Source: an uncultured Eubacteriales bacterium (lineage in GTDB: Bacteria > Bacillota > Clostridia > Christensenellales > Aristaeellaceae). From it: DNA of 64,000 nucleotides. Position numbers and translations under genes: made by a program. Below the pieces are notes generated by a model, which worked only from the letters and a program-made list of their open reading frames with translations, had not been told where the DNA came from and did not search any database. Shown piece after piece: positions 32,923-54,855 of the stretch. Numbering within the stretch: the first letter of the stretch is position 1; every line of letters begins with the position of its first letter. Location of the stretch: the NCBI GenBank assembly GCA_902781095.1, contig CACZHW010000012.1, forward strand, positions 1 through 64,000, read 5' to 3'.

Positions 32923-33270
32923 GGGGGTGTACTGGTTTCGACGGGATCGCAGGTGGTCGGGTAAGCGAGCCGCAGCCCCGGGCTGCGTTAAAACCGGGAA
33001 ATAAAATTGAACTGACAATAGCGAATACGCTTTCGCGGCCTAATCAGGCTGCGCGTCGGCCCGGGGTTCCCGCTGCCCCGGTCACCGGCGTCAATTCAGC
33101 GGGCCATGTTCCTGCCTAAGCTTTGCGGCTTGAACACATTATGAAGCTACCGAATCCCTGAGCCTGTCCACGGGCGCCCGGACGAGGGAATTCTAAATCA
33201 TGGACTGCGCTCGGAGAAAGCCCGGCTGTCACTTTTTCGGACAGGGGTTCGATTCCCCTCACCTCCACCA
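32923..33270 (+). ncRNA. ssrA: Transfer-messenger RNA (tmRNA)
   Basis: A 348-nt one-piece tmRNA. The 5' end GGGGGTG (32923-32929) pairs with CACCTCC just before the encoded CCA (33268-33270); ACTGGTTTCGACGGGAT and the T-arm GGTTCGATTCC are present. The tag frame reads GAC AAT AGC GAA TAC GCT TTC GCG GCC TAA (33014-33043), giving DNSEYAFAA, or TDNSEYAFAA if the resume codon is the preceding ACT. The 3' end is the left border of a 22-kb accessory region; tmRNA genes are classic integration sites. Confidence 0.97.
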
Positions 33271-33345: not shown

Positions 33346-33354
33346 AAGACTCTT

Positions 33355-33600
33355 CCCGTAGGACTATCGGTATGGGTTTCGGCCTTTCGCAGGCCGATTT
33401 GTTTATTTTGGGGGCTTATAGGGCTACGGGAACACCTTTCCCCGTAGGCTTATGACCATTCCCGTAGCCCTATAAGGCTCTCCCGTAGGCTTATACCCTG
33501 TTCCCGTAGTCTTATAATGCTTTCCCGTAGGCTTATGCCTCATTCCCGTAGTCCTATAAGGTTCTCCCGTAGGCTTATGCCCCTATTCCCGTAGTTCAAT
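33355..33600. repeat. Helically phased iteron array, about 21-bp period (CCCGTAG repeats)
   Basis: Eight direct copies of CCCGTAG plus about 6 bp start at 33441, 33461, 33482, 33503, 33524, 33545, 33566 and 33588 (steps 20-22, mostly 21). They alternate between CCCGTAGGCTTAT and CCCGTAGYCYTATA-like versions, so the higher-order unit is about 42 bp. A ninth copy is at 33355 and an inverted copy (GGGGCTTATAGGGCTACGGGAA) at 33411-33432. The gene-free interval 33346-33650 holds only this array. A period of two helical turns places all copies on one DNA face. Confidence 0.93.
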
Positions 33601-33650: not shown

Positions 33651-34682
33651 TCATTCAAGCTCTCTCCTCCAATCCATCCCAATCGGAATGGGTGGAAGCC
33701 AACGGATGATGGGCTTCCTGTCCGGAAACTTTGCGCTCCTGGGGCCAACCCAGAAGGTATGCCAATGCGCCGCCCGCACATGAGGCCGCGGACTGGAGTG
33801 AGCTCCCTGCACAGAAGCCATTTCCTTCTCAGCAGTGCGCTCATGGTTTTTGTAATTCCGGATAGCGTTGGAGACACGGACACCGACGTCCCACACCTGA
33901 GGCTCTTTGGGGCTTCTCACTCCGCCGCTGATCGTCCGCCGCTTCTGCGGATGCTCGATCTGCGGCATATCCGGTTCTTCGCTGCACAGATACAGGAGAA
34001 GCTGGAGCATGGAGGAAAATGTCTTTTTATATTCGTCCCGGCTGCCGACATACCGGGAACTGTCATTCGGAGGCATAAACAGATTGTCGGTTGCGTCCAC
34101 CCTGTCCATAGCGTCAGAAATCGTGCCTTCGCCCAGCGGCAGCGCGATCATTTTCGGTATATGTATTTCATCTGAGAAAATCGCGAACTGCAGGTCTATG
34201 CCTTTGCTGAACAGATTGTAATCCAGATGCGCGATAAAGCCGGTAATCGGATGACGCTCATAGGTCATGCCCGGAGTTTCCACAAAAACCGCCCACTCGG
34301 GAAGATGATACAGGCAGTCCGTGGGAATGTTGCCTGACAATGGCTGGCTGATCAGCGCATCGTAAATCTCGGGGGCGAAACGATAGACTCCTTTGCTGGC
34401 GCGCCAGGTGTAAAGCGTTCCTATGGTCATCATCTCTTCCATGTGCGTCAGGTAAAATGCCTCCCCATACTTGTGCGTAAGCACCAGAAAGGGAAACAGC
34501 GTGGGCATATAGCACCAGTCAGGAACGCTTCTGAGCAGTTCCATCCCGCCGGTATCCCTTCGGATGAATCCTTCCGGATGTTCGTAGCCCTTCCGGATGT
34601 CTGTCCAAAGGTTCGGGTACTGGCGGTTCAAATACCTGATCCAGCGGTCAGGGGCGTAATTAGAAAGTTCCTTTTTAGGCAC
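33651..34682 (-). CDS. AcrVA2-family anti-CRISPR homolog
   Basis: A 343-residue protein starting at GTG 34682, 7 nt behind AAAGGAGG; the ATG at 34700 would put the SD inside the gene. From memory of the Moraxella AcrVA2 protein I match, in order, a LYTWRASKGVYRFAPEIYDA segment, a HLPEWAVFVETPG segment, YLCSEEPDM, KEPQVWDVGVRVSNAIRNY and the C-terminal RPHVRAAHWHTFWVG followed by a charged WLPP end. AcrVA2 lowers Cas12a expression during its translation. No Cas gene is in the window. A weak TTGCTA-17-GATAGA promoter lies at 34715-34743 on the minus strand. Confidence 0.85.
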   Translation of the reverse strand: MPKKELSNYAPDRWIRYLNRQYPNLWTDIRKGYEHPEGFIRRDTGGMELLRSVPDWCYMPTLFPFLVLTHKYGEAFYLTHMEEMMTIGTLYTWRASKGVYRFAPEIYDALISQPLSGNIPTDCLYHLPEWAVFVETPGMTYERHPITGFIAHLDYNLFSKGIDLQFAIFSDEIHIPKMIALPLGEGTISDAMDRVDATDNLFMPPNDSSRYVGSRDEYKKTFSSMLQLLLYLCSEEPDMPQIEHPQKRRTISGGVRSPKEPQVWDVGVRVSNAIRNYKNHERTAEKEMASVQGAHSSPRPHVRAAHWHTFWVGPRSAKFPDRKPIIRWLPPIPIGMDWRRELE

Positions 34683-34805
34683 GGCACTGCCTCCTTTCAT
34701 TTGGTCAGCACGTATCTATCACTCTGAAGGCTGGAAATAGCAAGTCCCGTTTGTGAATGTATTTTCTTTTGATAAATGCCCCCTGGTTTGCTTCGTACCG
34801 GGCTG

Positions 34806-34881: not shown

Positions 34882-37521
34882 TCAACCCGCTGCCGCCGCC
34901 ATCGGGATCGGAGCGGACGGCTGAAAAGCTGCCGCCTCTGTTTTCCTTTCCGCTTTGGTTTTTCTTGCGAAACATTCCGGGAAGGTTTCCGGCGTTACGA
35001 GCAGCGAGTAGACGTTTGCCTGCCCGTTTTTGCCCTTCTGCGCAACGATCTCTCTTTCGGCAAAATTGTTCAGATTGAAGTATGCTGAAGAGGTCTGCTG
35101 ACCCATGGCTTCGGCGCAGTCCTCGACTGTGAATTCTTCCTCTGCGAATATCCCGTAAAGCTTGGACAGATACAGCTTTTGTGAAGGTGTCAGGTCGTTT
35201 GCCCGCACTCCCTTGAGAATACTGCTGCAAATCCGGTAACGGCACTGTCCGGAACTGGTGCCGGTTGTTTTCCTGACAAGTCCGATGTTAAGGGCCCGGC
35301 GGATGTCGTTCCCATAAGTCCAGCTTGACGAACCGAAGCGCTTACCCCATTCTGCCGCAGTAAACGTTTCGGCTTTTTTGTCAATCAGGCCTTGCAGGAA
35401 CTGTCCGATCCGCTGATCCCTGTCTGAATCGCTTTCACGCATCTCCTTCAGTTTCTTCACTATTTCATCCGACGGAACTTCGGAAGACTGTTCGTCCATG
35501 CCCTTGAAGGCATAAACGGCGGTCCTTTTGTCGTTGGAGATGTTGACTGTCAGTCCTCTCGAAAGCATCAGATCGCAGGAATCGTTGCTTCTTTCCTTTG
35601 GAAGGCCCGATAGGTCCTTCCATTCCTGACGCGAAAAGCTGAGTATTCCTTTTTCAACGCAGTCCCGGATGGTTTCAGCGGTCTTTCGATGCATCTCTGA
35701 GAAACTGCTTTCCATCCGTTTTATTTCTTTCCAGAAATCAGGTTCGTTTGCCTGGGCGGGAGAGTGTTCCTGTACCGGGGATGCTTCGGTTTTTGCCTGA
35801 AGTCCGGCAAGCGGGATGTGAAATACCGTAGGCTTTACGTGAGGGGTTTTATTCAGGACTATTCTTCTCCGCACCAGAGAATCGCACATGTTTTTTGCCT
35901 GAATGGGCGTCAGGCCGGCGTGCTCGATCAAATCCCTTGTGGTAAAGGAGCCTTTTCCGCTCTCCACCAGTTTCCGGATGAATTGCCCCGCCCTTTGTTT
36001 ATATGGTTTGTCACTTTTTTCATAGCCGGTGATTCTGTTCCAGAACCGCTGTTCTTCCGGCGGACTCTTATCGTTTTCCTCCTGGTGTGTTTCTTCTTCC
36101 GGACCTTCTTCCTCTTCATTCGGCTGCTGCCCCGCAGATGATTCCAGGGCGTAACGGAATGAATAAGTCATGACCGTTCCGCTCTTATCCCTGTCAAGGA
36201 AACCTTTCTGGAAGATATACCTGCACTCCTGATCCGCGTCCTTGCGTTCCAAATTCATCTTTTCCGCCCATTGGGTAACCGTAAAGGTTCGGTAGCCCAA
36301 TTCGATCATCTTACGGATCTTTATGGGATATGTTCTTGTCCTGGGCGTCGGTGAATGCTTCAGTTTATCGACTGCGGTGAGAAAATCAGGCAGCGGCATG
36401 ATCTCTATCGGCGGGGAAACAGGATATTTCTTCTCTCCTGGTGCGGGGTCTTCATCCTGCTGTTGCTCTTCGGTTTCCTGCACCGTTATGGTTTCCTGCG
36501 TTGCCTCATTGGATACTGTTCTCGCAAGCGGTTCCCTGGCCAGTTCACGCTCGCGTTCAAGCGTCTGCATCTCCCTCCGGAGAAGGCGTTCTTTTCTCGC
36601 GTCTACGGCGCGCACAAGCAGTTCGATGTAATACTCTATGAAATAGGTCATGTCCCCGCCGTTTTCCGCGCGTATGATCTCCCGCATGCTTTTGTAATAC
36701 CGGTAGCTTTCCTTTGCAATGATGGCGGAAATGGAAATGTCACGGAAGAAGTCGTATCCGCAACGCAGAAGGACGGCGGAGGACATCATCCGTGACAATC
36801 GTTCGTTTCCTTCGGGGAATGGCCGCGCGACCAGAAGATAAGCCTGGGCGACGGCCGCCTTGATCAGCGGGTGGACATTGGGTTCGCCAAGGAAAGCGGT
36901 ATACTGCCGCATCCTGTCAGGGAGAGCGTGAGCCGGCGGGACATCGTATGATTCATCGTTCATGGCGGCAATGGGATGACTGTCAGCCTGCCTGTATCCT
37001 TCCGCGCACCCGTCCATTTCCTCCGTCAGAATGAAGACAAGGTTTCTGATGAAGCTCTCATCCAGCGGACGGTATAAAGTGGCCGTCATTTCCGCCCAGG
37101 CGTGCCTGTTGTTCCAGATCATCTGCTCCTGGATATTCTCGGGCTCCGTTCCGCGCTGAAGGAAATCCATTGCTTCCTGCAGGGGCATCTGGGCGCCTTC
37201 CACAAAGCTGGTGAAGAACATTTCCTCCGTCATCGCGCTTGTCATCTGCGCCAGGTATGGGTCGAAGCCTTCTTCCTGAGAAAACGCCTCCTCGCACAGC
37301 CTTTCGCTTGCGGCAATCATCCGGTCCGTCAGTACGTACCAGTAAGGCAGTCCCATGGCGTTATACAGCGGCAGTACAACAGCGGAAGCCTTGCGTCGGT
37401 TCAGCAGTTCAGGCCAGAACGAATCGATGGAGTAACTGAGGGGAAGCTTGAAAAGCACCTCCCGGCGGGAAAGATAGTGCGCCTGGAAATAGGCAAGCAG
37501 TTTATCCTTATCCATTGCCAT
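34882..37521 (-). CDS. Fic-like protein with degenerate active site and five C-terminal winged-helix-like repeats
   Basis: An 879-residue protein. Residues 104-109 (TSFVEG) match the Fic inhibitory motif [ST]xxxE[GN]. The Fic core is at 217-260, but the active-site motif HPFx[DE]GNGR reads RPFPEGNER (233-241): the catalytic His is Arg and the second Gly is Glu. A charged linker (about 305-395) leads to five related segments of about 60 residues (about 398-456, 508-568, 612-672, 701-765, 777-842), each with an FT/FS-x-x-[DE]W-like helix start and a GLV/GFL end, looking like winged helices. AMPylation is unlikely; a DNA-binding scaffold is plausible. Confidence 0.82.
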   Translation of the reverse strand: MAMDKDKLLAYFQAHYLSRREVLFKLPLSYSIDSFWPELLNRRKASAVVLPLYNAMGLPYWYVLTDRMIAASERLCEEAFSQEEGFDPYLAQMTSAMTEEMFFTSFVEGAQMPLQEAMDFLQRGTEPENIQEQMIWNNRHAWAEMTATLYRPLDESFIRNLVFILTEEMDGCAEGYRQADSHPIAAMNDESYDVPPAHALPDRMRQYTAFLGEPNVHPLIKAAVAQAYLLVARPFPEGNERLSRMMSSAVLLRCGYDFFRDISISAIIAKESYRYYKSMREIIRAENGGDMTYFIEYYIELLVRAVDARKERLLRREMQTLERERELAREPLARTVSNEATQETITVQETEEQQQDEDPAPGEKKYPVSPPIEIMPLPDFLTAVDKLKHSPTPRTRTYPIKIRKMIELGYRTFTVTQWAEKMNLERKDADQECRYIFQKGFLDRDKSGTVMTYSFRYALESSAGQQPNEEEEGPEEETHQEENDKSPPEEQRFWNRITGYEKSDKPYKQRAGQFIRKLVESGKGSFTTRDLIEHAGLTPIQAKNMCDSLVRRRIVLNKTPHVKPTVFHIPLAGLQAKTEASPVQEHSPAQANEPDFWKEIKRMESSFSEMHRKTAETIRDCVEKGILSFSRQEWKDLSGLPKERSNDSCDLMLSRGLTVNISNDKRTAVYAFKGMDEQSSEVPSDEIVKKLKEMRESDSDRDQRIGQFLQGLIDKKAETFTAAEWGKRFGSSSWTYGNDIRRALNIGLVRKTTGTSSGQCRYRICSSILKGVRANDLTPSQKLYLSKLYGIFAEEEFTVEDCAEAMGQQTSSAYFNLNNFAEREIVAQKGKNGQANVYSLLVTPETFPECFARKTKAERKTEAAAFQPSAPIPMAAAAG

Positions 37522-37533
37522 CCGTCATCCTCC

Positions 37534-37935
37534 TCAGTTCGGTCGTCCCTCGATGCCGTCCAATGGTATTTGAAGCTGGGCGGGCTGTGCCGAACGCAGG
37601 TCAAATACGATAGCGTTGTGCGAGGGAATATAATTTCCGTATATCACGCGAGGCTTTTCGTCCGTCCACCCGGTCAACCTCCTGATCCGCCTGAGCAGGG
37701 AATGGCCGCTCATTTCAAACTGCTGCATAGGAACAGGCGGGATCACGACCGCTTCTCTGTCGTCTACGGTACAGGCCTGAAGGAGGAGCATCTTCCTGTC
37801 TTCGTTGATCAGCATCTGCACCTGGCGCGGATGTTCAAGGGCTTCCAGGATTGCCTTGCTGACGAGAATACTGTCTTCCTCAAGGCAGAGCGTAAGCATA
37901 AGGGGTTCTGATCCCGCATATGAAATATCCGTCAT
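37534..37935 (-). CDS. Island protein with a short version of the recombinase C-terminal domain
   Basis: A 133-residue protein with 12-nt and 7-nt gaps to its neighbours. It follows the pattern seen in the next two genes and in the recombinase C-terminus: a strand with VQMLINEDRKMLLLQ, a helix LLRRIRRLTGW, then a YIPSHNAIVFDLRSAQPAQL end. Cysteine/Arg positions in the middle differ, so it is the most divergent copy. No known function. The shared domain suggests it partners the recombinase or its DNA complex. Confidence 0.65.
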   Translation of the reverse strand: MTDISYAGSEPLMLTLCLEEDSILVSKAILEALEHPRQVQMLINEDRKMLLLQACTVDDREAVVIPPVPMQQFEMSGHSLLRRIRRLTGWTDEKPRVIYGNYIPSHNAIVFDLRSAQPAQLQIPLDGIEGRPN

Positions 37936-37942: not shown

Positions 37943-38365
37943 TCATCCTTTCCTTCCGCGGCATTCCGCCGGAGTGATCAGGGTATAAGACTTCAACTGC
38001 GCTTCGGACAGAATCATTTCCGCATCTGTGAGATCAAAGAGCCATCCCTCGGCATCCGGCAGATAATCTGTCGTTTTCATCATCCTGTTCTGCCGCTGAT
38101 CCCAGCGCATCATACCGAAGATTTTGTGCAGGAAAGCCCCGCTCCCTTTAATGACCGTCCTGCCGGGAACGGATCCGGAGGGAACGGCAAGCGCCGCTCC
38201 CAGATCCTTTTTCCCGCACGGCTTTACGATCATCATCTTCCTCTCCGGATGAACCGCCATCTGCACATAACCTGCCGGTATGCCGTCGAGTACGACGCTC
38301 CTGTCGTCTACTGAAAAAGTCATGGACAGGGGTGCGCTCTGCCGAACCTCCGCGAAGGTCCTCAT
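37943..38365 (-). CDS. Island protein with recombinase-associated domain
   Basis: A 140-residue protein whose ATG overlaps the stop of the 286-residue gene by 4 nt (38362-38365). The domain is visible as YVQMAVHPERKMMIVKPCGK, then FLHKIFGMMRWDQR and YLPDAEGWLFDLTDAEMIL. These line up with YVQVLVNPTAEKLVIRPCEE, LYEMMGW and YVFDLTSTEIYL of the upstream gene. Function unknown; the conserved RPC/KPC and GW segments mark the family. Confidence 0.7.
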   Translation of the reverse strand: MRTFAEVRQSAPLSMTFSVDDRSVVLDGIPAGYVQMAVHPERKMMIVKPCGKKDLGAALAVPSGSVPGRTVIKGSGAFLHKIFGMMRWDQRQNRMMKTTDYLPDAEGWLFDLTDAEMILSEAQLKSYTLITPAECRGRKG

Positions 38366-39222
38366 ACCTTTGTCACCTCCCCGGTTTCCTGATCTATCAT
38401 TTCCATTGGCATCTGCTGACCCTCCGGTTTCTGCCCGACGTCGGCGAAGTCGTATCCGTCCATCAGGTTAATCTGCATGGATGTCCGGTGTTCCTGAACG
38501 GGAATGCCGAAGGAATCCCGCCAGTCCGCTGGGTATACCGCTGTGCTTCTCTTGGCTTTTGCCGTCGGATTGTCAGGATCTTTGACGGAAGGAAGATAAA
38601 TCTCCGTGCTGGTAAGATCGAATACGTACAACTGCTCGCCCTGGTAACTGATCCTGGTTCCCTGAAGCTTATAGCGGTAGAGCGCTTCCCAGCCCATCAT
38701 CTCATACAGCTTTGCGGTGAACAGGCCGCATGTGATCTGCCGGCTCTTCCGCTTGTCGTCTTTGGCGATGCACCACCGGATCGCGTCCCTTGCGCCTTCC
38801 TCGCAGGGGCGGATGACCAGTTTTTCGGCGGTAGGATTAACAAGCACCTGCACGTAAACCACCTGCTCCAGCTTCGATATGCAGGCGTTGTTGAAAATGA
38901 TGCTGTTTCCACGGATCGTGAGCGTTGGATCAAACTTGTGCGAGAAGAATTCTCTGCGTACCACCTGGTAGCCCTCAAAGGAAAAACCGGCTTCGATGGC
39001 GATCCGCTGCGCTTCCTCGCGTTCTTCCTTACTCAGCGGTTTAAACCCGCCCTGGGTGAGTACCTGGGCATCCTTATCCAGCACACCGGCGGGAGAGTAC
39101 TGCTGAGGATAAGTACGCTGCGGATAGGCCGGATAGCCTGTCTGCGGCATTCCCGCAACCGGCCGGGGATACTGCGGTGAAGCCTGGGCGTTGTAGGGGT
39201 ACTCGGTTTTCCGTTCATCCAT
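38362..39222 (-). CDS. Island protein with Pro/Tyr/Gln-rich N-terminus and recombinase-associated domain
   Basis: A 286-residue protein (SD AAAGGAG). Residues 5-50 are a low-complexity Pro/Tyr/Gln region (QTGYPAYPQRTYPQQYSP). Residues about 80-210 hold the shared domain: EGYQVVRREFFSHKFDPTLT, YVQVLVNPTAEKLVIRPCEE, DAIRW, LYEMMGW, LYVFDLTSTEIYLP. The recombinase C-terminus has the same order (EGFQVVSGSLFNHAYEATVS, YVEVLFNPVERMLAVRPSDE, NAIRW, LYEALGW, LFFDLDN). A sticky N-terminus plus this domain suggests a structural role in a nucleoprotein complex; that is inference. Confidence 0.72.
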   Translation of the reverse strand: MDERKTEYPYNAQASPQYPRPVAGMPQTGYPAYPQRTYPQQYSPAGVLDKDAQVLTQGGFKPLSKEEREEAQRIAIEAGFSFEGYQVVRREFFSHKFDPTLTIRGNSIIFNNACISKLEQVVYVQVLVNPTAEKLVIRPCEEGARDAIRWCIAKDDKRKSRQITCGLFTAKLYEMMGWEALYRYKLQGTRISYQGEQLYVFDLTSTEIYLPSVKDPDNPTAKAKRSTAVYPADWRDSFGIPVQEHRTSMQINLMDGYDFADVGQKPEGQQMPMEMIDQETGEVTKV

Positions 39223-39254: not shown

Positions 39255-39617
39255 TTAATCGCCGTCCCATACGCCGTCGGGTCTCATTTTCGCCATTGCG
39301 ATCAGTTGAAACAGCGGCCGTTTCGCGTTGCCTTCGGTCGCTTTCCAGTAGTCCTGGTCTACATCGTCTCCCAAAGCGGCAGCGGCCTTCTCCAGAACAG
39401 GGATGCTTTCCGCGCCTGTCATGCCGTAGATGGTCCGGATGCCTTTTTCCCCGAACACATCGTCTCTGTAATAGAAATCGCTGTAGTTGTAGGTCACATT
39501 CAGCCAAAGCTCCTTTGTGCCTCCCAACTTGTATGTGCCTCCTGTCATAAAGTGCGGCTCGTCTACCTCCAGGGTTTCCTTCGTAACCGGGTCGCGCAGG
39601 CTGATGTCATAGCTCAT
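39255..39617 (-). CDS. Hypothetical island protein
   Basis: A 120-residue acidic protein (GGAGG, 8-nt spacer). It begins YDISLRDPVTKETLEVDEPH and has a Tyr/Asn-rich strand (LWLNVTYNYSDFYYRDD). A helical second half reads ESIPVLEKAAAALGDDVDQD. The early hairpin resembles small proteins common in Bacillota mobile elements, but I cannot name the family. It sits between the 248-residue unknown and the recombinase-domain genes in one operon. Confidence 0.7.
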   Translation of the reverse strand: MSYDISLRDPVTKETLEVDEPHFMTGGTYKLGGTKELWLNVTYNYSDFYYRDDVFGEKGIRTIYGMTGAESIPVLEKAAAALGDDVDQDYWKATEGNAKRPLFQLIAMAKMRPDGVWDGD

Positions 39618-39662: not shown

Positions 39663-40409
39663 CTATTGCTCTTTGCCGTCTTTTTTCTTCCAAAGCTTTC
39701 CTACCAGAAGAGCGTCCAGCCTTCCGCATATTTCAGGCGCGCACTCAGCAAGTACCGCGTCCTGCCCGAGGGAAAGCTTTCCGTAGAAATCGCGCATGAA
39801 TTCTTCGCTGAAGGCTCCGTACACCATTCTGCTGGACTCATCGTGCAGATGGCATTCGCACCTGTATATGTAGCCGAGCCAGTAGGCGTATTCGTAATCG
39901 TCCGCCAGCTTTTTAACGTCCGTTTCCGAATCCAGGATTACAGGACTGGCGCGGGCCTGAGGGTCACTTTCTTCTGTCTCTTCCTCGTTCAGCGCTTTGA
40001 CGATCGCCATGTTCGGGTTTTCTCCTGTTCCGACGCCGCTGACAATTTCGTTCAGCCACATGACCGTATCCACGATAACGGAAGGGGACTTCAGCAGTAC
40101 GGGCATCCTCAGGTAGTTGGATATATCGTCTTCCTCCATGCCGCCGGCGCAGGAGAAGCTGTAGTCGATGACCCCCGCAAGCTGGCTGTTCATGAACACC
40201 GGTGCAAACTCGCTCATGGCAAGGCCCCTGTCTACCGCCGCCATGAAAATGCTTCCCTGCATGTCGCAGTAGGCAAGATCGCGTTCGGTGAATTCACGCT
40301 CAATCTTCTCCACGTCGGGGTTTATCGGGGATTCCCGCGCCATCTTCATCAACCGCTTCACGTTTCGGGAAAGCGGTCTGCTCCGCGCGGGGTTCTTGGC
40401 ACTGATCAT
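39663..40409 (-). CDS. Hypothetical island protein coupled to the recombinase
   Basis: A 248-residue protein whose start overlaps the recombinase stop by 4 nt (40406-40409). It is acidic and mostly helical. A basic N-terminus (KNPARSRPLSRNVKRLMKMA) is followed by a body with a DYEYAYWLGYIYRCECHLHD segment near residue 185. No catalytic motif is recognised. The tight coupling suggests dosage-linked action with the recombinase. Confidence 0.68.
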   Translation of the reverse strand: MISAKNPARSRPLSRNVKRLMKMARESPINPDVEKIEREFTERDLAYCDMQGSIFMAAVDRGLAMSEFAPVFMNSQLAGVIDYSFSCAGGMEEDDISNYLRMPVLLKSPSVIVDTVMWLNEIVSGVGTGENPNMAIVKALNEEETEESDPQARASPVILDSETDVKKLADDYEYAYWLGYIYRCECHLHDESSRMVYGAFSEEFMRDFYGKLSLGQDAVLAECAPEICGRLDALLVGKLWKKKDGKEQ

Positions 40410-42652
40410 TCCGGGCCTCCTTCCTCGTTTTCATCGTCGTCTTCCGCCGCGTCCATCGCGTCCAGCATGATTTCCTGGAGCGCTTCGATCTCGCTGTAGT
40501 CAACACGGTGATCGCCGCCCAGAACACGCGCTTCCGTCATGACCTCCCATTCTCCGTCGTCGTCAATCGCCGTCAGCCGGAATTCGCTGTTGTGCTCGAA
40601 GGCCGGGGTGCCGTAGTTCCGCTTTTCATATTCCGCGATTTCCTTCAGCTTCTGTTCCATCGCTTCCGTGTCCTCGATGGGCTGCGGTTCGTCGTCCGCT
40701 CCGAAGAATATTCCTTTGGTTTCTTCGGATTCCATCCGCCGTCCGGTTTCCTGCCCCGGCGCGTTCTCTTCTCCCGCTGTGCGCTTGCAAAGTTCCCTGC
40801 CGATGAAATTGTCCAGGTCGAAGAACAGGATGGTTTCACCGTCTCTTCGGCGCACGATTGCGGGTGAGCGGTATGCGTACCCTTCATCCCACCCAAGCGC
40901 TTCATACAGTATGGAACAGAACGCTTTTGCGCTGACGTTTGCGCCTTTGCCTTTCTTATCCGTCCAGCGGATTGCGTTCCGGTTGCTTTCGTCGCTCGGG
41001 CGGACGGCAAGCATCCTTTCGACCGGGTTGAACAGCACCTCGACATACTGCTGCCGGGAGATGGTGATTTTACCGTCTGATTCTGATGACGTATCCAGGC
41101 GGGAAACGCATGTGGTGCTGAAAGCCATCTGCCTGGGGCTGAAGGAGACGGTCGCTTCATACGCGTGATTGAACAGGCTTCCGCTGACCACCTGAAATCC
41201 TTCGCGGATCTTCGGAGCGTTTTCCTTTGATTCGCTCTCTTCCTGGCTGCCCTCGATCTGCGCTTTGATTTTCTGCTCCGCGCTGGAAAGCGTCCTGGCG
41301 ATGCGCTGGACTCCGTTGTCGTCTGTCATTCCGACAAGACGTCTGCCGCCCTCCGGCAGATGCTCGTTCTCCAGGTCTGTTTCCATTTCACCCTCGGCAA
41401 GCCCCATGGCGATGCTGCTGACGCGGTAGTATTCCGCGGCGTCGTATCCTGCCCAGGCCTTGTTCACGGAAATGTATCCGGTCAGCGCGCCGTGGTCGAT
41501 GACCATCATGGGGAGGTAACCGCCTGTATGCCTGTACCTGTGGCTGTTCAGTATCCGCTGCGCCGCGTTCCACTGCGCTCTGGTGATGATCGCCGGATGA
41601 TGACCCGGCTGGTAATACTTGTTCTTCTTGCCGTTGTTCCGCTTGGACTTATGGTCGTGGAAATCAGGCGTCCATGTTTTCCTGGCCAGTACGTCTCCGC
41701 AGTAGCGTTCATTCCGCAGGACGCTGTACACCGCGGCTTCCGTCCAATGCGTGCTGTGCCGTCCGCACACCTTCCACAGCCCGGTTTCCCTGCGCAGGTC
41801 GTTCAGCGTTTTCGCGATCTCCGCCGTGGAACTCCCGTTCAGCAGCATGTAATACATGAGCCGGACGGTATTCGCTTCATCCTCGTTGATGACAAGCACC
41901 TTTTTATGACTCCCGTGCCCGTCCGGTATCTCGACCCTGTCGTATCCCAGCAGCGCGGGGGTAATGAAACGGCCGCGACTGAAGCGCCATTCGATGGACA
42001 ACTGCGACGCCTCGCTCTTCATATGGCTTTCTTCCTCGGCCACCATGGCCAGGACGAAGAGGATGATGTTGCTGGTGGCGTCCAGGGTGTTTAGGTGCTC
42101 CTGCTCGAAGAATACGGGAATGGGCGGATCGTGCTTGTCCTTCAGTTCACGCACCCACCCGATGCAGTCCAGCAGGTTTCTCGCGAAGCGGCTCACCGAC
42201 TTGGTGATGATCATGTCGATCTTGCCGTCCATGGCGTCTTTCATCATGAGTTTGAAGGCCGGCCGGTGATCCGTGTTCGTTCCGGAGAATCCGTCGTCCA
42301 CGTAGGTGCCGGCGTAGCGCCATTTGGGATTGGCTTTGATCATGTCCCGGTAATTCCGCTTCTGGAGTTCGATGGACCACAGCTGATCCACGTCTTCCGT
42401 GGAGACACGGCAGTAGGCGGCGACCCTCAGGATACGGTCTTCCTGGGCGGCCTGCGCGGCGGTGGGGATCTTGTGGATGCCCTCGCCGGTATAGGTGCTG
42501 ACCTCGGCGCGCAGGGCTTCCTTCGCCCTCGCGCGTTCGGTCATGAACCCATTTCCCGGCGGACGCTCAGCGGGTTTTCCCCGCGCCTCCCGCGCCTTTT
42601 GCCTGGCCCTTTCCTCGGCCATCGGACGTACGTCTTTCAAGGGTTGCTTCAC
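40406..42652 (-). CDS. Large serine recombinase with extra C-terminal domain
   Basis: A 748-residue protein. The resolvase catalytic domain spans about residues 74-215: YCRVSTED with Ser84 as nucleophile, YVDDGFSGTN, SRFARN with the catalytic arginines, and EEESHMKSEAS. The recombinase domain follows (LLGYDRV, ALYYMLLNGSS-like YYMLLNGSS, YSVLRNERYCGD). A classic zinc-ribbon CxxC pair is not evident; instead residues about 486-620 carry a domain shared with three downstream genes. The start is GTG 42652, though GGAG sits only 1-2 nt upstream; TTG 42640 is an alternative. It probably moves the island. Confidence 0.9.
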   Translation of the reverse strand: MKQPLKDVRPMAEERARQKAREARGKPAERPPGNGFMTERARAKEALRAEVSTYTGEGIHKIPTAAQAAQEDRILRVAAYCRVSTEDVDQLWSIELQKRNYRDMIKANPKWRYAGTYVDDGFSGTNTDHRPAFKLMMKDAMDGKIDMIITKSVSRFARNLLDCIGWVRELKDKHDPPIPVFFEQEHLNTLDATSNIILFVLAMVAEEESHMKSEASQLSIEWRFSRGRFITPALLGYDRVEIPDGHGSHKKVLVINEDEANTVRLMYYMLLNGSSTAEIAKTLNDLRRETGLWKVCGRHSTHWTEAAVYSVLRNERYCGDVLARKTWTPDFHDHKSKRNNGKKNKYYQPGHHPAIITRAQWNAAQRILNSHRYRHTGGYLPMMVIDHGALTGYISVNKAWAGYDAAEYYRVSSIAMGLAEGEMETDLENEHLPEGGRRLVGMTDDNGVQRIARTLSSAEQKIKAQIEGSQEESESKENAPKIREGFQVVSGSLFNHAYEATVSFSPRQMAFSTTCVSRLDTSSESDGKITISRQQYVEVLFNPVERMLAVRPSDESNRNAIRWTDKKGKGANVSAKAFCSILYEALGWDEGYAYRSPAIVRRRDGETILFFDLDNFIGRELCKRTAGEENAPGQETGRRMESEETKGIFFGADDEPQPIEDTEAMEQKLKEIAEYEKRNYGTPAFEHNSEFRLTAIDDDGEWEVMTEARVLGGDHRVDYSEIEALQEIMLDAMDAAEDDDENEEGGPE

Positions 42653-43164: not shown

Positions 43165-44016
43165 TTACTCTGCCATAAGAGTCTTGCTGAACGCATCGTA
43201 GTTTGCGGTTTCCGTGGGCCGGCAGTATACCGCGAATTCTACATGTCTGAACCAGCCTGCGTATTCTTCCAAGGCTGTCCTGAACGCCTCTGCAACAGCG
43301 TCCGGATCGTTCATGAACGCTCCGCAGCCGAATGCGCCGAGAATCAGCATGTCCGCTTTGTTTGCTGCGGCGACATGCAGGATGTGCTTCGCGCGCTTGA
43401 CATGCAGATCATACTGCTCCGAAAAACTGAGAGACACTGCCGCTCCGCTGGCGGGATTATGCACGTTCCCGGGTTCCGGGCGGAGGTTAGGAGCGGCACA
43501 ACTGATCACGTCCACTGTGACCCAGTCTTCCTGCTTCATGCGCTGGGGGAAGGTTTCGTCTGTTTTGCAGATTACGATCCCCGACGAATAAATGCAGGCG
43601 TCGGTATTCAGGTTATTGTGCGCGGCACGGTTTGGATCGTAGTATTTCTGCCACAGCCACCGCCGGTCAAGCGTCGGGTAAAGAGTAGAGCACCGGCACA
43701 GGCTTTCTTCCTGTGCGCTGCTGCCTGTTTTCACTCCGCCGCCGGGACGTGTCGCCGAAGCGAAATTCAGCACGGCGATCCTGTCTTCCGGGTGAGCGGA
43801 ATGCCACTCCATTGCCGCTTCAAACGTCTTATGCTTCGTTACGCTTACACTGCCTTCGCGATCCGGCGCTCCCTCCAGAGCGGGATATTCATCGACGGCA
43901 TACAGTTTCGTACCGTCTCGGCTGGCTGCCACTGAAGATGCCAGCGCGGGATCTTCCGTATAGAACTTCTGTGTATCCTCAAAAACCTCAATCAGCCGTT
44001 GGCGTCGGTCGTACAT
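43165..44016 (-). CDS. TIGR02452 family protein (bacterial PARG/macrodomain type)
   Basis: A 283-residue protein. The signature is around residues 85-110: NFASATRPGGGVKTGSSAQEESLCR (the GGGV loop and QEE catalytic pair of bacterial poly(ADP-ribose) glycohydrolases), followed by STLYPTL and later ADMLILGAFGCGAFMNDPDAVA, which binds ADP-ribose in macrodomains. It is expected to remove ADP-ribose from proteins or nucleic acids. Last gene of a coupled operon, overlapping the metallophosphoesterase gene by 25 nt. Confidence 0.9.
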   Translation of the reverse strand: MYDRRQRLIEVFEDTQKFYTEDPALASSVAASRDGTKLYAVDEYPALEGAPDREGSVSVTKHKTFEAAMEWHSAHPEDRIAVLNFASATRPGGGVKTGSSAQEESLCRCSTLYPTLDRRWLWQKYYDPNRAAHNNLNTDACIYSSGIVICKTDETFPQRMKQEDWVTVDVISCAAPNLRPEPGNVHNPASGAAVSLSFSEQYDLHVKRAKHILHVAAANKADMLILGAFGCGAFMNDPDAVAEAFRTALEEYAGWFRHVEFAVYCRPTETANYDAFSKTLMAE

Positions 44017-44558
44017 GCGTGTTCCTCCTTAAAACGCCGGTTGTTTTCAATCAGTTCATCCAGAGTGACAGGCGCGAAGCCGTTGATATCCACGCCCGCG
44101 TTGAGCATCTGATCCCGGGCGGCGATGAGCGGCCAGTAATCCGCACCGGTGTTGTTATGGATGTGGCCGTAAATCATATACCCGCCTCTGCTCATACCCG
44201 GCCAGGACATCATGGGATAATGGCACAGTGTGGCCGAGCGTCCGCTGTCTGTGACAAAGAGCATGGGCGATACGCTTTCAAACCACGCGCCTAGATCCGC
44301 CTTCTTCATCCAGTACCTGTCATGGTTGCCGATGACAAGGTGCTTTTTGCCCTTCAGCGCCGACAGGTATACTTCCGCCGGTTTCTTTGCGCGGAAGAGA
44401 AAGTCGCCCACGATATAAACTGTGTCGTTTCGATGCACCTTGGCATTCCAGTTTTTGATCAGCGCCGTGTCCATTTCATCCGCGTCAGCAAAAGGGCGGC
44501 CGCAGTGCCGGATGACGTTGGCATGACCAAGATGCAGGTCAGAGGTGTACCAGATCAA
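43992..44558 (-). CDS. Metallophosphoesterase (calcineurin-like)
   Basis: A 188-residue protein with TTG start at 44558 (SD AGGTGA). Metal-ligand motifs are in the canonical order: TSDLHLGH, VYIVGDFLF, VIGNHDRY, CHYPMMSW and YGHIHNN. It resembles phage and plasmid single-domain phosphoesterases that act on nucleotides or cyclic phosphates. It is the second phosphoesterase of this operon and is unlike the one at 45754-46449, so they probably act on different bonds. Confidence 0.92.
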   Translation of the reverse strand: MIWYTSDLHLGHANVIRHCGRPFADADEMDTALIKNWNAKVHRNDTVYIVGDFLFRAKKPAEVYLSALKGKKHLVIGNHDRYWMKKADLGAWFESVSPMLFVTDSGRSATLCHYPMMSWPGMSRGGYMIYGHIHNNTGADYWPLIAARDQMLNAGVDINGFAPVTLDELIENNRRFKEEHACTTDANG

Positions 44559-44570
44559 TCACATCACCTC

Positions 44571-45185
44571 TCAGCTTTCGAGAATCAGCACACGCACATC
44601 CCGCAGGCCGATGGCAGAGTCTTCGTCCTCCCACGCAAGGTTGCGGTTGAAGGCCTGTACACGGGCGGAAACGGCCTGATAAAACTCCCGAAGAATACTG
44701 CGGCTGCCGTAAGGCGGGGTGTATTCATAATACTGATAGGCCTTCTTCGCTTCCGTATCCAGTTCCTGATACTCTTCCACGGAAAGCATATGATCTTCGT
44801 TCAGGGAATCCTCCTCCGGGTGGCTCAGTTGTCTTCCGATCTCCTGCCGGGGGAAGAAGCCGCAATACTCGGGTATGCTGAAATCTACCTTCTCAAACCA
44901 TTTGCCGTCAATCACATACCAACTGCGCCATCTGGGGTTTTCCGTGCCGGCAAGCACGCCGTCATCACCGGTGCATTCCTTCTTCACCGCGTCGGACAGA
45001 TCTCCCGGCGGGGCCATCAGGTACTGCCAGTCGCAGTCCCACTCCAGCGCCTGTTTTACAAGGCTCTGGCCTGTGACGCAGGGGACGATCCGGAGCCGGC
45101 CCTTTACATCCTGCTGAAAGAAATCAATACACTGCCACTGACCGTTTACCTTTGCTTCAGTATAGCCGTCAAGCCATACGCTCAT
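44571..45185 (-). CDS. Hypothetical protein of the phosphoesterase operon
   Basis: A 204-residue acidic protein rich in Trp, Tyr and Glu. It starts MSVWLDGYTEAKVNGQWQCI, a form seen in small phage-encoded proteins, and has KYYEYTPPYG-like YQYYEYTPPYG near residue 150. No catalytic signature. It overlaps the GrpB gene by 4 nt (45182-45185) and precedes a phosphoesterase by 12 nt, so it is co-expressed with nucleotide-acting enzymes. Confidence 0.72.
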   Translation of the reverse strand: MSVWLDGYTEAKVNGQWQCIDFFQQDVKGRLRIVPCVTGQSLVKQALEWDCDWQYLMAPPGDLSDAVKKECTGDDGVLAGTENPRWRSWYVIDGKWFEKVDFSIPEYCGFFPRQEIGRQLSHPEEDSLNEDHMLSVEEYQELDTEAKKAYQYYEYTPPYGSRSILREFYQAVSARVQAFNRNLAWEDEDSAIGLRDVRVLILES

Positions 45186-45742
45186 TTCTGTTCACTTCCT
45201 TTGCGTTCCGAAAAGGCCTGCCTGTATCCCGCCAGCACACCTTCGATAAAGAATCCCTTGACCGTCCGGTACATGTCCCGGTCGTCCGGGAAGATACCTT
45301 CCAGCATATGCTTTGTATACCTGTACCTGGCGCGCAGCAGTTCACTGTCCAGAAGCAGTCTCTGAAACAGCAGCTGATCCTGCGCGACAGGATTGTCCTC
45401 ATAGCACAGATGCGCATAGAAGGTCTTGCCGGGCTCTCTGCCGCTGGACAGGAAATACCGTCCCGGTTTGCCGCACTCTCCAAGATTGCGGTAACCGATG
45501 CGTTCCAGTTTGGGGATGCATGATTCCAGCGGCACGCTTTTGTCCGGGCAGACCAGAATGTCGATGATGGGCTTGGCAGGCATCCCTTCAATGGACGTGG
45601 AGCCGACATGCCTGACAGCAACGCTTCCGCCGTCATCAATGAGCGCGCCGATGATGCACTGCTTTTCCAGGTGAAATTCGTGCTGCCATTCGGAATCCCA
45701 GGGGGCGAGCCACACTTCGTTGTGAATATCCTTTTTCTCCAT
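45182..45742 (-). CDS. GrpB family nucleotidyltransferase-fold protein
   Basis: A 186-residue protein. ATG 45742 is preferred (GAGGAG upstream). GrpB/UPF0157 markers: EVWLAPWDSEWQHEF, the nucleotidyltransferase signature VRHVGSTSIEGMPAKPIID, and HLCYEDNPVAQDQLLFQRLL. The GS...DxD pattern suggests nucleotidyl transfer, but activity of the family is poorly known. It lies between the second phosphoesterase and an unknown gene in a run of overlapping genes. Confidence 0.88.
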   Translation of the reverse strand: MEKKDIHNEVWLAPWDSEWQHEFHLEKQCIIGALIDDGGSVAVRHVGSTSIEGMPAKPIIDILVCPDKSVPLESCIPKLERIGYRNLGECGKPGRYFLSSGREPGKTFYAHLCYEDNPVAQDQLLFQRLLLDSELLRARYRYTKHMLEGIFPDDRDMYRTVKGFFIEGVLAGYRQAFSERKGSEQK

Positions 45743-45753
45743 GCCGTTACTCC

Positions 45754-46449
45754 TCACACCTTGAATTCCCGGATAGACTCAAACAGCAGCGTCAGCCTGT
45801 CAATATCCTTTTCCGTATGATAGTGCCCGGCGTACCAGTGCTTATAGGTCAGTCTGTCTTCAATAGAATCCAGCCAGGTTTCCGTGCTTTTATCCACCTT
45901 GCTCTGATCGATCTGGGGAAGGAACACTTCAACCGGCTCGTATTTCAGGGGAACTGTATGGGTCAGGACGGCATCGACTTTCCAGTTCTCGTAATCAAGG
46001 ACTTTTTCGATTCCCTTTTTCATTTCGGGCGTCGGCTGCTCGTCCGCCCACCAATTCCAGCCGTTTGCCAGACGGTAGTATTTGTCCACGCTGTACGCGC
46101 CACCGATAACGATCGTCTTCTGCCCGTCCATATCAAACACTTCGCCGTCAACGGCGAACAGCAGATTGGGATATTCGTCCTCGACGAATACCATGCCGCC
46201 GTTCCATTTCTTCAGACGGTATGTAGGGATCGTGCCCGGGCGCATTTCGTGGTTTCCGTGAATGGAGAATATGGTGATGGGCATTTCAGCCATACGCTTT
46301 TTTGCGCGTTGATCCCGCTTGCCGCCGTAGTAATTGAACCCGGCGTCACCGAGGATGATCATGACGTCGTCTTTTGACGGGTGAAACCTGTCGCAGAACC
46401 GCTCGATGCGGGAAAAGTCTCCATGCGTGTCTCCGGTTATATAAATCAT
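45754..46449 (-). CDS. Metallophosphoesterase
   Basis: A 231-residue protein. Metal-binding motifs: ITGDTHGDF, MIILGDAGFNYYGG, IFSIHGNHEMRPG, LTHTVP and YAGHYHTEKD. The GDTHGD/GNHE set and the WWADEQPT segment match stand-alone phage-type phosphoesterases. The start at 46449 (GAAGGAG) overlaps the upstream gene by 4 nt. It is distinct from the 188-residue enzyme downstream. Confidence 0.92.
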   Translation of the reverse strand: MIYITGDTHGDFSRIERFCDRFHPSKDDVMIILGDAGFNYYGGKRDQRAKKRMAEMPITIFSIHGNHEMRPGTIPTYRLKKWNGGMVFVEDEYPNLLFAVDGEVFDMDGQKTIVIGGAYSVDKYYRLANGWNWWADEQPTPEMKKGIEKVLDYENWKVDAVLTHTVPLKYEPVEVFLPQIDQSKVDKSTETWLDSIEDRLTYKHWYAGHYHTEKDIDRLTLLFESIREFKV

Positions 46450-46742
46450 TTCTTCTCTCCTTCAAGATGGGCTTTTGCCCAGCTTTCGGCGCGGTCAGGA
46501 TCGCTTACGCACCAGTAGAGGAAAAGGATCAGCGTTTCTTCCAGTGTCCAGCCAATGGCTGACATCACCGCTTCCGCTTTTACTTTCAGCACCTCGTCCA
46601 ATTCGACGGAGATGGTTTCCGTCGCGCACTCAATGCTGCGCCTGACGTTTTCATGGACGGACATGAGTTCCGCATCCTCAGGGCATTTGAAGAAGTCCGG
46701 TTCTTTCCGCCCTGCCACATAGTTAAATATCTTCTGCTCCAT
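46446..46742 (-). CDS. Small RHH/RelB-like protein
   Basis: A 98-residue acidic protein. The second half (VELDEVLKVKAEAVMSAIGW followed by TLEETLILFLYWCV) resembles the RelB/DinJ antitoxin pattern of strand plus two helices. No toxin of the RelE type is adjacent. The upstream gene overlaps by 20 nt (46723-46742). It may be a regulator of the operon or an orphan antitoxin. Confidence 0.62.
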   Translation of the reverse strand: MEQKIFNYVAGRKEPDFFKCPEDAELMSVHENVRRSIECATETISVELDEVLKVKAEAVMSAIGWTLEETLILFLYWCVSDPDRAESWAKAHLEGEKK

Positions 46743-47016
46743 TCTGTTTTATCCTCCTGGCGGCCCTGCGCTTTTCCCGGTATTCTCTGCTGATCCGTTC
46801 CACTTCGGCGATCTCCGCCTCGTAATTGCCTGACAGGCAGGCGTAAGTCTCAATTGACGTCAGCGCGCAGACACGCTTGCCCCTCCGGGTAAAGAACGCG
46901 ATATGACCGGGCGTTTCGACGAAAGCCCAAACCGCTGACGGCTTTCTGCGGAATGCGGTAACGGTGAAGTCTTTTTCCTCGATCAGGAAGTCGAGCTTCC
47001 CTGGCATGTGATCCAT
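46723..47016 (-). CDS. Hypothetical small protein of the phosphoesterase operon
   Basis: A 97-residue protein (GGAGG, 7-nt spacer). It has beta strands KLDFLIEEKDFTVTAF and VWAFVETPGHIAFFTRRGKR, then a basic helix (EVERISREYREKRRAARRIK). It overlaps both neighbours (33 nt with HAD, 20 nt with the RHH gene). I do not recognise the fold. Confidence 0.6.
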   Translation of the reverse strand: MDHMPGKLDFLIEEKDFTVTAFRRKPSAVWAFVETPGHIAFFTRRGKRVCALTSIETYACLSGNYEAEIAEVERISREYREKRRAARRIKQNGAEDI

Positions 47017-47474
47017 GGGTGTGCCTCCAGCCCGTTAAGTATTTCTATACACCGGTCAGCTTCCTTCTCAGTCAGACCGGTGTCAAATTCTGTTTGAACG
47101 AGATGGTCCATATGACCAGTCATATCGTTGTCATCGTCCAGAATCACATACTGCCATTCGCCCGGATTACGGTTGAACCATGCTGTGATATCATTTCCTC
47201 GTTCACCGCCGACATAGGGGGTCTTATCATACGGTTCTATCCCATATTTCGTGAGCCATTCCAGCAGACGCTGGTACGATGTGGGAATTTGTCGCCAGGC
47301 AGAGGAAACCACAATATACGCACCGGTATAAGCAACGATACGCTTTAACTGTTCCAGGGACGGCTCGTACAGAAGATCGTCCCTGTAGGTGCGTACACCC
47401 CGCTCATACATTCTGGTAGCCCATGAGCCATTGTTAAGGACACCGTCCACATCAAGAAAAATGACTTTGTTCAT
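46983..47474 (-). CDS. HAD-family phosphatase of the RNA-repair (HAD_SAK) type
   Basis: A 163-residue protein; ATG 47474. HAD motifs: FLDVDGVLNN (nucleophile Asp), IVVSSAWRQ (motif II Ser), and YVILDDDNDM (motif IV). The TPYVGGERGNDITAWF and TEFDTGLTEKEAD stretches match the HAD domain found in Swiss-army-knife RNA repair proteins and related phage phosphatases. It opens the coupled operon and would act on phosphorylated nucleic acid ends or nucleotides. Confidence 0.88.
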   Translation of the reverse strand: MNKVIFLDVDGVLNNGSWATRMYERGVRTYRDDLLYEPSLEQLKRIVAYTGAYIVVSSAWRQIPTSYQRLLEWLTKYGIEPYDKTPYVGGERGNDITAWFNRNPGEWQYVILDDDNDMTGHMDHLVQTEFDTGLTEKEADRCIEILNGLEAHPWITCQGSSTS

Positions 47475-47508
47475 TCTTGCCCCCATGGCCATAAGTCCGG
47501 CCAAATAT

Positions 47509-47553
47509 ATATTCTCATAGTACGCAATGCCTTTCAACGTCCGTCCGGTCGCA
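47509..47553 (-). promoter_or_regulatory. Promoter/operator of the HAD-phosphoesterase operon (site copy 2)
   Basis: CAACGTCCGTCCGGTCGCA (47535-47553) is 18/19 identical to the block at 42722-42740. It overlaps a TTGAAA -35 (47532-47537, minus) with GAATAT at 47509-47514 (17 bp). The transcript would start about 30 bp upstream of the HAD gene. Confidence 0.7.
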
Positions 47554-47612
47554 AATATGAAATTTTTCCAAAGAGATCTAAGCCGGAGTTTGTTGTTATA
47601 AAAGAGTGAATG

Positions 47613-47640
47613 AAAAAAGGCACCCCAACATAGGGCGCCC
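47613..47640 (-). terminator. Terminator of the HTH gene at 47645
   Basis: On the minus strand GGCGCCC/GGGTGCC (47633-47639, 47619-47625; one G-U pair) followed by TTTTTTC. Confidence 0.8.
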
Positions 47641-47644
47641 GGTG

Positions 47645-48115
47645 TCAAGCAGACAATTTGAGCGGTTTCCCACCGTATGATGTAAGGCTTTCCTGGACAT
47701 CGTCCACTGAGCACTTAAACATCGTATGGGTAATACGAGCAAGTTCCCGGTTTCTTCGTGTTCCTGTCAGACTAATCCCTGCTGCCTTTAGCAGTTCTGT
47801 AGAAAGCCACGGAGGCAGATGCATGGCAATACACATAGCAACAATCTTTTCCGGGTTATATGAAGTTTCCTTTCCCAACCGCTTGTACCGGTCTACGGTG
47901 GAAGGTGAAATGTGAGCATTCTCAGCAAGTTGTTCAATGGTTATATGCGACAGTTTCATCACATAAGACAGCGCCTTTGGGAAAGCGCCCGGCATGTTGT
48001 CAAGGAGCATTTCTGCCTTTTCAAAACGTTGGGCATCGGTTAATTTCCGCAAAGGATCGATAAAGTCATAGTAATCCGCAGTAGAAATCCGAACAGTTTC
48101 AACATATTGATCCAT
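47645..48115 (-). CDS. HTH domain protein, island regulator
   Basis: A 156-residue protein (GGGAGG, 6-nt spacer). The HTH is around residues 55-85: MKLSHITIEQLAENAHISPSTVDRYKRLG. It is followed by CIAMHLPPWLSTELLKAAGI, which is seen in XRE-type regulators that pair with metallopeptidases, although no ImmA gene is adjacent. The ATG overlaps the upstream gene by 17 nt. Confidence 0.8.
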   Translation of the reverse strand: MDQYVETVRISTADYYDFIDPLRKLTDAQRFEKAEMLLDNMPGAFPKALSYVMKLSHITIEQLAENAHISPSTVDRYKRLGKETSYNPEKIVAMCIAMHLPPWLSTELLKAAGISLTGTRRNRELARITHTMFKCSVDDVQESLTSYGGKPLKLSA

Positions 48116-48521: not shown

Positions 48522-48572
48522 GTGCTCTTTGCCTCCTTTATGATGATAGTATTTGATCTACAGTTTCCATTC

Positions 48573-50719: not shown

Positions 50720-50758
50720 TGTAGCATCCCTCCAAAGGATCCATCATAGACATTATAT

Positions 50759-50789
50759 GCCCTACTGGGGAGCGTATATCCAGTAGGGC
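50759..50789 (-). terminator. Hairpin between the DUF2130 gene and the two-gene module
   Basis: A perfect 10-bp stem GCCCTACTGG/CCAGTAGGGC (50759-50768, 50780-50789), with no long U tract. On the minus strand it runs into TATAAT (50752-50757), a probable -10 of the next operon. The stem can therefore act as terminator and mark that promoter. Confidence 0.6.
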
Positions 50790-50810
50790 ATTATTAAAAT
50801 GCATTTTATG

Positions 50811-52226: not shown

Positions 52227-52240
52227 GCCGTTCTCCTTCT

Positions 52241-54648: not shown

Positions 54649-54824
54649 GGTAACCGGTGCGACCAAACGGTCTTAAATCCATGATGTTACCAGGATCTTT
54701 CTTTTACGTTACCCTCGGCCTCAACCTTGTTACCATTCGTCTTTGACCTGTTACCATGTCTGGAATCATGTTACCGCCCAAAATGAAAATGTTACCAGCC
54801 GCCGAAAAAGTAACAACTGGTAAC
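54649..54824. repeat. Second phased array, about 21-bp period (GTTACC repeats)
   Basis: GTTACC occurs at 54686, 54708, 54729, 54750, 54770 and 54791 (steps 22, 21, 21, 20, 21). Inverted copies flank the set: GGTAACC at 54649-54655 and GGTAAC at 54819-54824. Between repeats the sequence is variable. The array lies in the divergent interval between the ATPase/TOPRIM operon and the acetyltransferase. The gene-free stretch 54462-55083 holds this array and a terminator-like hairpin (54856-54909). Confidence 0.88.
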
Positions 54825-54855
54825 ATCGTATCAAAATTCACGTTCCTTGCCAAAG

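Follow-up and report, generated by a model that had tools for sequence, protein, structure and literature searches.

The stretch of DNA analysed here (the window) comprises 64,000 nucleotides from an uncultured Eubacteriales bacterium of the Aristaeellaceae (assembly GCA_902781095.1, contig CACZHW010000012.1, positions 1 to 64,000 of the forward strand), and carries a gene for an unusual Fic-like protein, which we name FicL. An earlier note on this DNA had described the protein as a Fic relative lacking the catalytic histidine and followed by five similar segments of about 60 residues, and had proposed that these segments could read the sites of nearby 21-bp repeat arrays. The gene and the parts of its product are as follows; elsewhere, loci are designated by L numbers and genomes by G numbers.

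34882..37521, minus strand: FicL, putative Fic-like pseudoenzyme with five winged-helix modules (879 aa, ATG start)
36514..37521, minus strand: Fic domain (residues 1-336)
37195..37212, minus strand: TSFVEG, inhibitory-helix motif (residues 104-109)
36799..36825, minus strand: RPFPEGNER, altered Fic motif (residues 233-241)
36148..36390, minus strand: module M1 (residues 378-458), corresponding to the lone winged helix in ordinary Fic proteins
35806..36048, minus strand: module M2 (residues 492-572), most similar to M3 and absent from the four-module relatives
35497..35739, minus strand: module M3 (residues 595-675), supported by pairwise scores, structure match and family profile
35218..35472, minus strand: module M4 (residues 684-768), supported likewise by pairwise scores, structure match and family profile
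34978..35202, minus strand: module M5 (residues 774-848), acidic, with a conserved P[ED]CF tail after it

The assignment of FicL to the Fic proteins holds by sequence and by predicted fold. FicL matches the Pfam Fic family at 3.9e-7, above the Pfam cut-off, and the PADLOC SoFic model at 1.4e-27, and the solved chains nearest to it by sequence are Fic proteins (best 5.4e-9). An AlphaFold2 model from 14 aligned sequences has a mean predicted local distance difference test score (pLDDT) of 75.8, with 80-93 in most blocks of residues ~1-330, and supersedes an earlier model from 6 sequences in which the Fic domain was poor. Its top structural matches are Fic proteins (Z 24-28 to FICD, SoFic and 4rgl), of which 4rgl (Z 28) aligns to residues 51-457, the Fic domain together with M1; Foldseek comparison with viral structure models gave weak or partial matches only. 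Translation of the open reading frame confirms that RPFPEGNER at 233-241 replaces the HPFxxGNGR signature and that the inhibitory motif TSFVEG is retained, both as the earlier note had stated. Relative to the pattern HxFx(D/E)GN(G/K)R, FicL has Arg for His and Glu for the second Gly in 13/13 family proteins; the other ATP-site residues (E/D237, G238, N239, R241 and R244) are retained in all 13. The retained residues (D/E, GN, the two arginines and the inhibitory Glu) are presumably, from Fic biochemistry, those that hold ATP and the inhibitory helix, and we take the N-terminal (S/T)xxxE(G/N) motif to be of the class II Fic type. Because the ATP-holding residues are kept and the sole losses are the base (His) and the second Gly, we infer from the sequence that FicL is a nucleotide-binding pseudoenzyme, without a general base and hence presumably without AMPylation activity. 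The Fic domain is acidic, with a net charge of -11 to -23.

The five segments that follow are indeed repeats of one another. Pairwise z scores against 500 shuffles are 13.5 for M2-M3, 9.2 for M1-M3, 6.3 for M2-M4, 5.3 for M3-M4, 4.6 for M1-M2 and 3.9 for M1-M4, and M5 is weak against every other module (z -0.1 to 3.4). A family profile seeded with M1-M4 of the window and then iterated, a process which may itself have absorbed ordinary Fic winged helices, recovers all five window modules (E 2e-17 to 1e-27) and gives 1 marginal match (E 0.21) among 15 shuffled proteins. With this profile there are five modules in FicL from the window, L083, L084 and L088, four in L040, L041, L042, L043, L072, L074, L075 and L081, three in the truncated L039 protein, and one winged helix in each of two ordinary Fic proteins (L003 and L068). 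M2 is the module missing from the four-module relatives of the window FicL. Structure prediction of the repeats, which the earlier note had called for, gives winged helices: each module is predicted by AlphaFold2 to consist of helix-helix-strand-helix-helix followed by one or two C-terminal strands (pLDDT ~78-89 in most blocks), with a winged-helix core of ~60-65 residues and a module-to-module spacing of ~80-115. In the 6-sequence model the modules match the C-terminal winged helices of the Fic proteins 7cb8 (M3), 8cil (M4) and SoFic 3eqx (M1) with Z 8.2-9.3, as well as those of SelB and TFIIE. Such Z scores are usual for small winged helices, and the matches therefore back the fold and not a function. 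M1 also resembles the single winged helix of an ordinary Fic protein of G002 (z 9.1), and because of this likeness and the module counts FicL most likely descends, as judged from sequence comparison, from a Fic protein whose only winged helix was duplicated.

Relatives were sought with an alignment of the window and G001 proteins, with protein C of the same operon (see below), and with the motif pattern itself. A viral scan using the two-protein alignment found no FicL; the motif-pattern scan of viral sequences returned 10 stretches, nine being FicL and one a chance frame (L090). There are 13 distinct proteins that cover the motif, forming 10 groups at <90% Fic identity, and all of them read RPFP[DE]GNERLxR and T[SG]xxEG, down to 41-42% Fic identity. 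The 13 leave out L073 (19,196 bp identical to L072), L082 (protein the same as in L081) and L002 (identical to L043), four stretches from contigs already represented (L085, L086, L087 and L089, the same contigs as L074, L075, L073 and L072 respectively), and L044, L060 and L071, in which just the N-terminal part is present. Among the Fic-match loci listed, 26 of 29 have His at this position, two have no readable motif, one reads PPMLDGNQR, and Arg occurs in none. In a tree of 37 Fic domains, which has some long branches and whose 26 ordinary rows were chosen because they carry His, the 11 FicL rows form one clade (100/99), and this clade joins (100/97) L003, L068 and L091, all of them ordinary HPxxDGNGR proteins with one winged helix. 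FicL is a monophyletic family in which the altered motif is fixed.

The ratio of nonsynonymous to synonymous substitution rates (dN/dS) for the Fic domain is 0.035-0.097 in nine FicL pairs, and therefore the domain is in use without its histidine and is no relic; a decayed pseudogene is ruled out by these ratios and by the invariant motif. Within the group of the window protein, Fic domains are 72-85% identical across lineages, as compared with 29-43% for the modules. The family is rare, being present among 396 genomes of the order in just the window's own genome and G200, with a third match (G185) proving to be an ordinary Fic protein; it is also found in G001 of the genus. No close plasmid or deposited-phage relatives were found, the best matches listed covering ~1/4-1/3 of the query at 23-30% identity, and those that are annotated are Fic family proteins.

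The modules differ among relatives in a manner that suggests exchange. Loci L074 and L075 are ~90% identical across 7.4 kb, and a two-breakpoint fit to their FicL genes sets off codons 344-550, corresponding to M1 and M2, where nucleotide identity is 60.1%, between flanks of 93.3% and 94.1% (93.5% outside overall), with a gain in log likelihood of 164.3 for the block as against <=8.4 in 20 shuffles. A milder case is seen among L083, L084 and L088, in which most 20-column blocks within module 1 show 75-95% identity and those of L084 module 2 drop to 15-55%. Recombinational exchange of modules on a constant scaffold, as is characteristic of HsdS, is found in one clear pair and one milder case, and by analogy such a trade of entire modules fits a resemblance to specificity subunits. 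The L074/L075 swap thus fits modules that select a target.

FicL lies downstream of six genes on the same strand, which together with it form an operon headed by a large serine recombinase, LSR-X.

37534..37935, minus strand: protein E, immediately upstream of FicL and similar to part of C
37943..38365, minus strand: protein D, with weak similarity to C
38362..39222, minus strand: protein C, bearing domain X, which is also found at the recombinase C-terminus
39255..39617, minus strand: protein B, 78% identical in L041
39663..40409, minus strand: protein A, conserved in the FicL-type operon
40406..42652, minus strand: LSR-X, with Resolvase and Recombinase domains, no zinc ribbon and a C-terminal domain X

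Domain X of LSR-X is 32% identical to protein C over 133 columns (E 7e-22). Against the Protein Data Bank, protein C gave no match and protein A none better than E 0.056. Zn_ribbon_recom is absent from all five LSR-X proteins tested (window, L072, L074, L081 and L062) and is present in 3/3 other recombinases from FicL loci. Fifteen dereplicated FicL loci include upstream DNA (window, L039, L041, L042, L043, L044, L060, L071, L072, L074, L075, L081, L083, L084 and L088; L040 starts at FicL), and E is directly upstream of FicL in 14 of these. FicL is present in 11/12 recombinase loci that have A, the exception being L069, and in 0/12 recombinase-C loci that do not (L061-L067 and L076-L080, of which L061 stops just past C). 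Protein C itself occurs in 10/396 genomes of the order. In L062 and L066, two sister operons without a Fic gene, E is followed instead by a 319-aa protein and a DUF6551 protein. Both appear ParB-like by eye, although Pfam names DUF6551 only; phage ParB-fold/DUF6551 fusions are described as binding CTP or ATP (PMC12704722). The sister operon type occurs in deposited gut phages, with 21 records matching protein C; two that were inspected belong to Ca. Heliusvirales, have their recombinase genes on the other strand under the names integrase/DNA invertase, and have a transcriptional repressor annotated just upstream of the operon.

FicL belongs to temperate tailed phages and their remnants. Nine virus records contain it (L071, L072, L074, L075, L081, L082, L083, L084 and L088), with a portal gene in four (L072, L082, L083 and L084) and a terminase gene in three (L072, L083 and L084), and the remaining records may be fragments; tail genes are near FicL in L072 and L041. 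Among the window proteins scanned, none near FicL was recognised as a second recombinase or as a structural protein, and because of this we read the window copy as a phage remnant or satellite. By eye, from its flanking frames, L039:3509-11971 appears to be a FicL remnant within a comM-like gene, and its FicL frame seems to continue into a TatD-type tail.

To the other side of FicL are a gene designated F, a transfer-messenger RNA (tmRNA) gene, and the first of the two arrays that the earlier note had proposed as FicL targets; they are listed here together with the second array and one at L069.

33651..34700, minus strand: protein F, AcrVA2 homologue (profile E 5.3e-14 to 7ci1; phrog_6160 2.9e-50)
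33354..33600: 21-bp array with eight TCCCGTAGNNNTAT sites, between the tmRNA and gene F
32923..33270, plus strand: tmRNA (ARAGORN)
54685..54825: second array, with five forward and one inverted TGTTACC, steps mostly 20-21 bp
L069:8304-8515: array at L069, with about six TCAAACGATAG-like sites adjoining the tmRNA, differing in sequence from the window array

A profile from four F proteins matches AcrVA2 (7ci1) across its core, over profile positions 92-319, and F accompanies FicL at varying positions in five dereplicated loci (window, L039, L040, L072 and L081). AcrVA2 recognises a nascent peptide so as to bring about loss of Cas12a mRNA (PMC13131331). There were no Cas12a matches in 29 genus genomes, and control genomes were likewise silent.

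The 21-bp array is real, with eight exact sites as against none in 100 shuffles, but it ends 1.28 kb short of the FicL stop codon, and another gene occupies the interval. The second array is ~17 kb from FicL and has no motif in common with the first, and its pattern of spaced TGTTACC pairs is unique to that spot in its own genome. The TCCCGTAGNNNTAT-type array is absent from the 28 other genus genomes (1/29 in total). The idea that tmRNA loci in general carry this array was rejected, since one of 24 such loci has it. No arrays are near the operon in any of the 12 other FicL loci scanned (L039, L041, L044, L060, L072, L074, L075, L081, L082, L083, L084 and L088, with L081 and L082 carrying the same operon); L039 and L044 each have one short-repeat cluster, kilobases from FicL. 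L069, from a genome of a different family, has the only comparable array and an inserted pair of LSR-X and A, with no FicL in the fetched stretch. Because the arrays are absent at the other FicL loci scanned, yet one is present in L069 with no FicL seen, they accompany, if anything, the tmRNA-side insertion rather than FicL. A guess that the second array is the end of an IS21-type element found no backing, as there is no Mu-transpos_C_2 match in its own genome and no istA-like gene was recognised beside it. For the window tmRNA, ARAGORN gives a tag of 32 aa, and another frame read by eye gives an ordinary tag ending YAFAA.

FicL shares with SoFic-type proteins (3eqx/3zcn, 4rgl, 8cil and 7cb8) the Fic fold, the (S/T)xxxE(G/N) motif and a winged helix right after the Fic domain, but differs in having Arg for His and Glu for the second Gly, in having four to five winged helices and not one, and in its fixed place in a phage recombinase operon. 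Loss of the catalytic His with retention of the clade is also described for Doc clade D2, although these are single-domain proteins with QxFx(D/E)(G/V)NKR whereas FicL has RPFP(D/E)GNER and tandem winged helices; the section of PMC4454073 on the His-less Doc clade describes a Gln variant and no Arg clade. An altered Fic motif in AvrB, as well as winged helices fused to Fic, are already on record (PMC2686095). In the open-access literature nothing was recognised on an Arg-for-His Fic clade, a tandem-winged-helix Fic protein, or Fic beside a serine recombinase. Like phage integrases and Ccr proteins, LSR-X has Resolvase and Recombinase domains, but it differs from these large serine recombinases in having no zinc ribbon and in the C-terminal domain it has in common with small operon proteins. 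As for the ParB-fold/DUF6551 phage proteins, DUF6551 takes the slot after E in L062 and L066; they have another fold and no sequence relation to Fic. In type I restriction, HsdS has a conserved scaffold and exchangeable recognition modules, and its catalytic partner has no recognition domain of its own. The likeness of FicL to HsdS is one of proposed function, and no homology is claimed, the modules of FicL being winged helices and its partner a serine recombinase.

We tentatively favor a role for FicL as a target-recognition subunit for the operon recombinase LSR-X, with somewhat less than even confidence. The Fic domain, in keeping its nucleotide-holding residues, would probably serve as a platform for assembly or as a clamp that depends on nucleotide, the four to five winged-helix modules would be exchangeable target readers, and proteins A, C and E may serve as linkers between FicL and LSR-X. 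The client is most likely LSR-X, with FicL supplying target choice in trans, because the two are in the same operon and LSR-X has lost the zinc ribbon used by ordinary phage integrases for DNA recognition; the arrangement would work much as HsdS does for a type I restriction enzyme. The evidence for this role is the sequence, the predicted fold, the fixed motif, purifying selection, the gene neighborhood, the missing zinc ribbon and the module swap, from which we infer nucleotide binding, DNA as the target, and a physical FicL/LSR-X partnership. That the whole constitutes a split serine recombinase, with a zinc-ribbon-less catalyst and dead Fic modules choosing its target in trans under nucleotide control, is an unlikely proposition as it stands. 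Several observations weigh against recombinase targeting by FicL. No DNA-binding site for FicL was found, and winged helices can also bind RNA, as in the SelB match, or proteins. The modules are near neutral (M1 -5 to +6, M5 -6 to +2), and the predicted recognition helices of the window modules have a net charge of -1 to +1, atypical of strong DNA binders. In L088 the recombinase is directly upstream of FicL without A-E, and LSR-X of the same kind is also found in Fic-less operons, such that FicL is not universally needed.

The main rival, which we consider possible but doubtful, is that FicL regulates transcription of the early operon, or of the anti-CRISPR gene, with modules that bind operators, a pocket that senses the host state, and a module swap that reflects heteroimmunity. 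The winged-helix fold is that of many repressors, the L074 operon has an XRE-type gene running divergently from it, a repressor is annotated upstream of the sister operons in the two phages, and the AcrVA2 homologue is near FicL in its five loci. However, FicL is deep inside the operon and not at a promoter, its constant neighbor is E and not the anti-CRISPR gene, no common operator was recognised, and by eye the L074/L075 DNA upstream of the recombinase is no more diverged than intergenic DNA. Alternatively, and with a rather low likelihood, the modules bind protein or RNA. FicL would then be a scaffold, or else inhibit a host Fic enzyme or a defence protein of the host in a dominant-negative or antitoxin-like way, and an arms race would have diversified its modules. 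The near-neutral modules with a mostly acidic M5, the acidic Fic domain, the matches to RNA-binding SelB winged helices and TFIIE, and the anti-CRISPR homologue as a neighbor are all in keeping with this, but an inhibitor is as a rule a small protein without ties to a recombinase operon, and E precedes FicL almost without exception, even in relatives with Fic identity as low as 42%.

It is improbable that the Fic domain, with its His-to-Arg and Gly-to-Glu changes, remains an enzyme of a different chemistry, in the manner of AvrB, which retains the fold and binds ADP without the motif. As chemistry is generally understood, Arg is a poor general base, and retention of the inhibitory Glu motif points to a closed site, even though the remaining motif residues are all kept. 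The Doc clade with Gln for His is described as possibly active (PMC4454073), and the motif is missing from AvrB (PMC2686095). Binding of FicL to the two arrays (33354-33600 and 54685-54825), which might for instance be centromere-like or terminal, is very improbable. Both arrays are real and phased at roughly 21 bp, but they are dissimilar to each other, none is near the operon at the 12 other FicL loci scanned, and the L069 array is by a tmRNA with no FicL seen. Nor does the notion that five modules read five sites hold up, as the relatives mostly carry four modules and there are eight exact sites in the window array.

The FicL clade, in which loss of the catalytic His is fixed under strong selection, offers a means of testing what the Fic fold does without catalysis, and the L074/L075 pair constitutes a natural module-swap experiment, in that whatever the modules read should change with the modules. 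If the partner is LSR-X, phages would have a modular means of retargeting serine recombination, of relevance to integrase engineering. The operon also adds a type of recombinase and places an AcrVA2 homologue in a new context.

Beyond the recombinase, the cargo at 43165-54512 includes genes for PARG, GrpB, a metallophosphoesterase, a HAD RNA-repair protein, PDC-M09B and an AbiLi-like ATPase, and we read this region as a defence or repair cluster.

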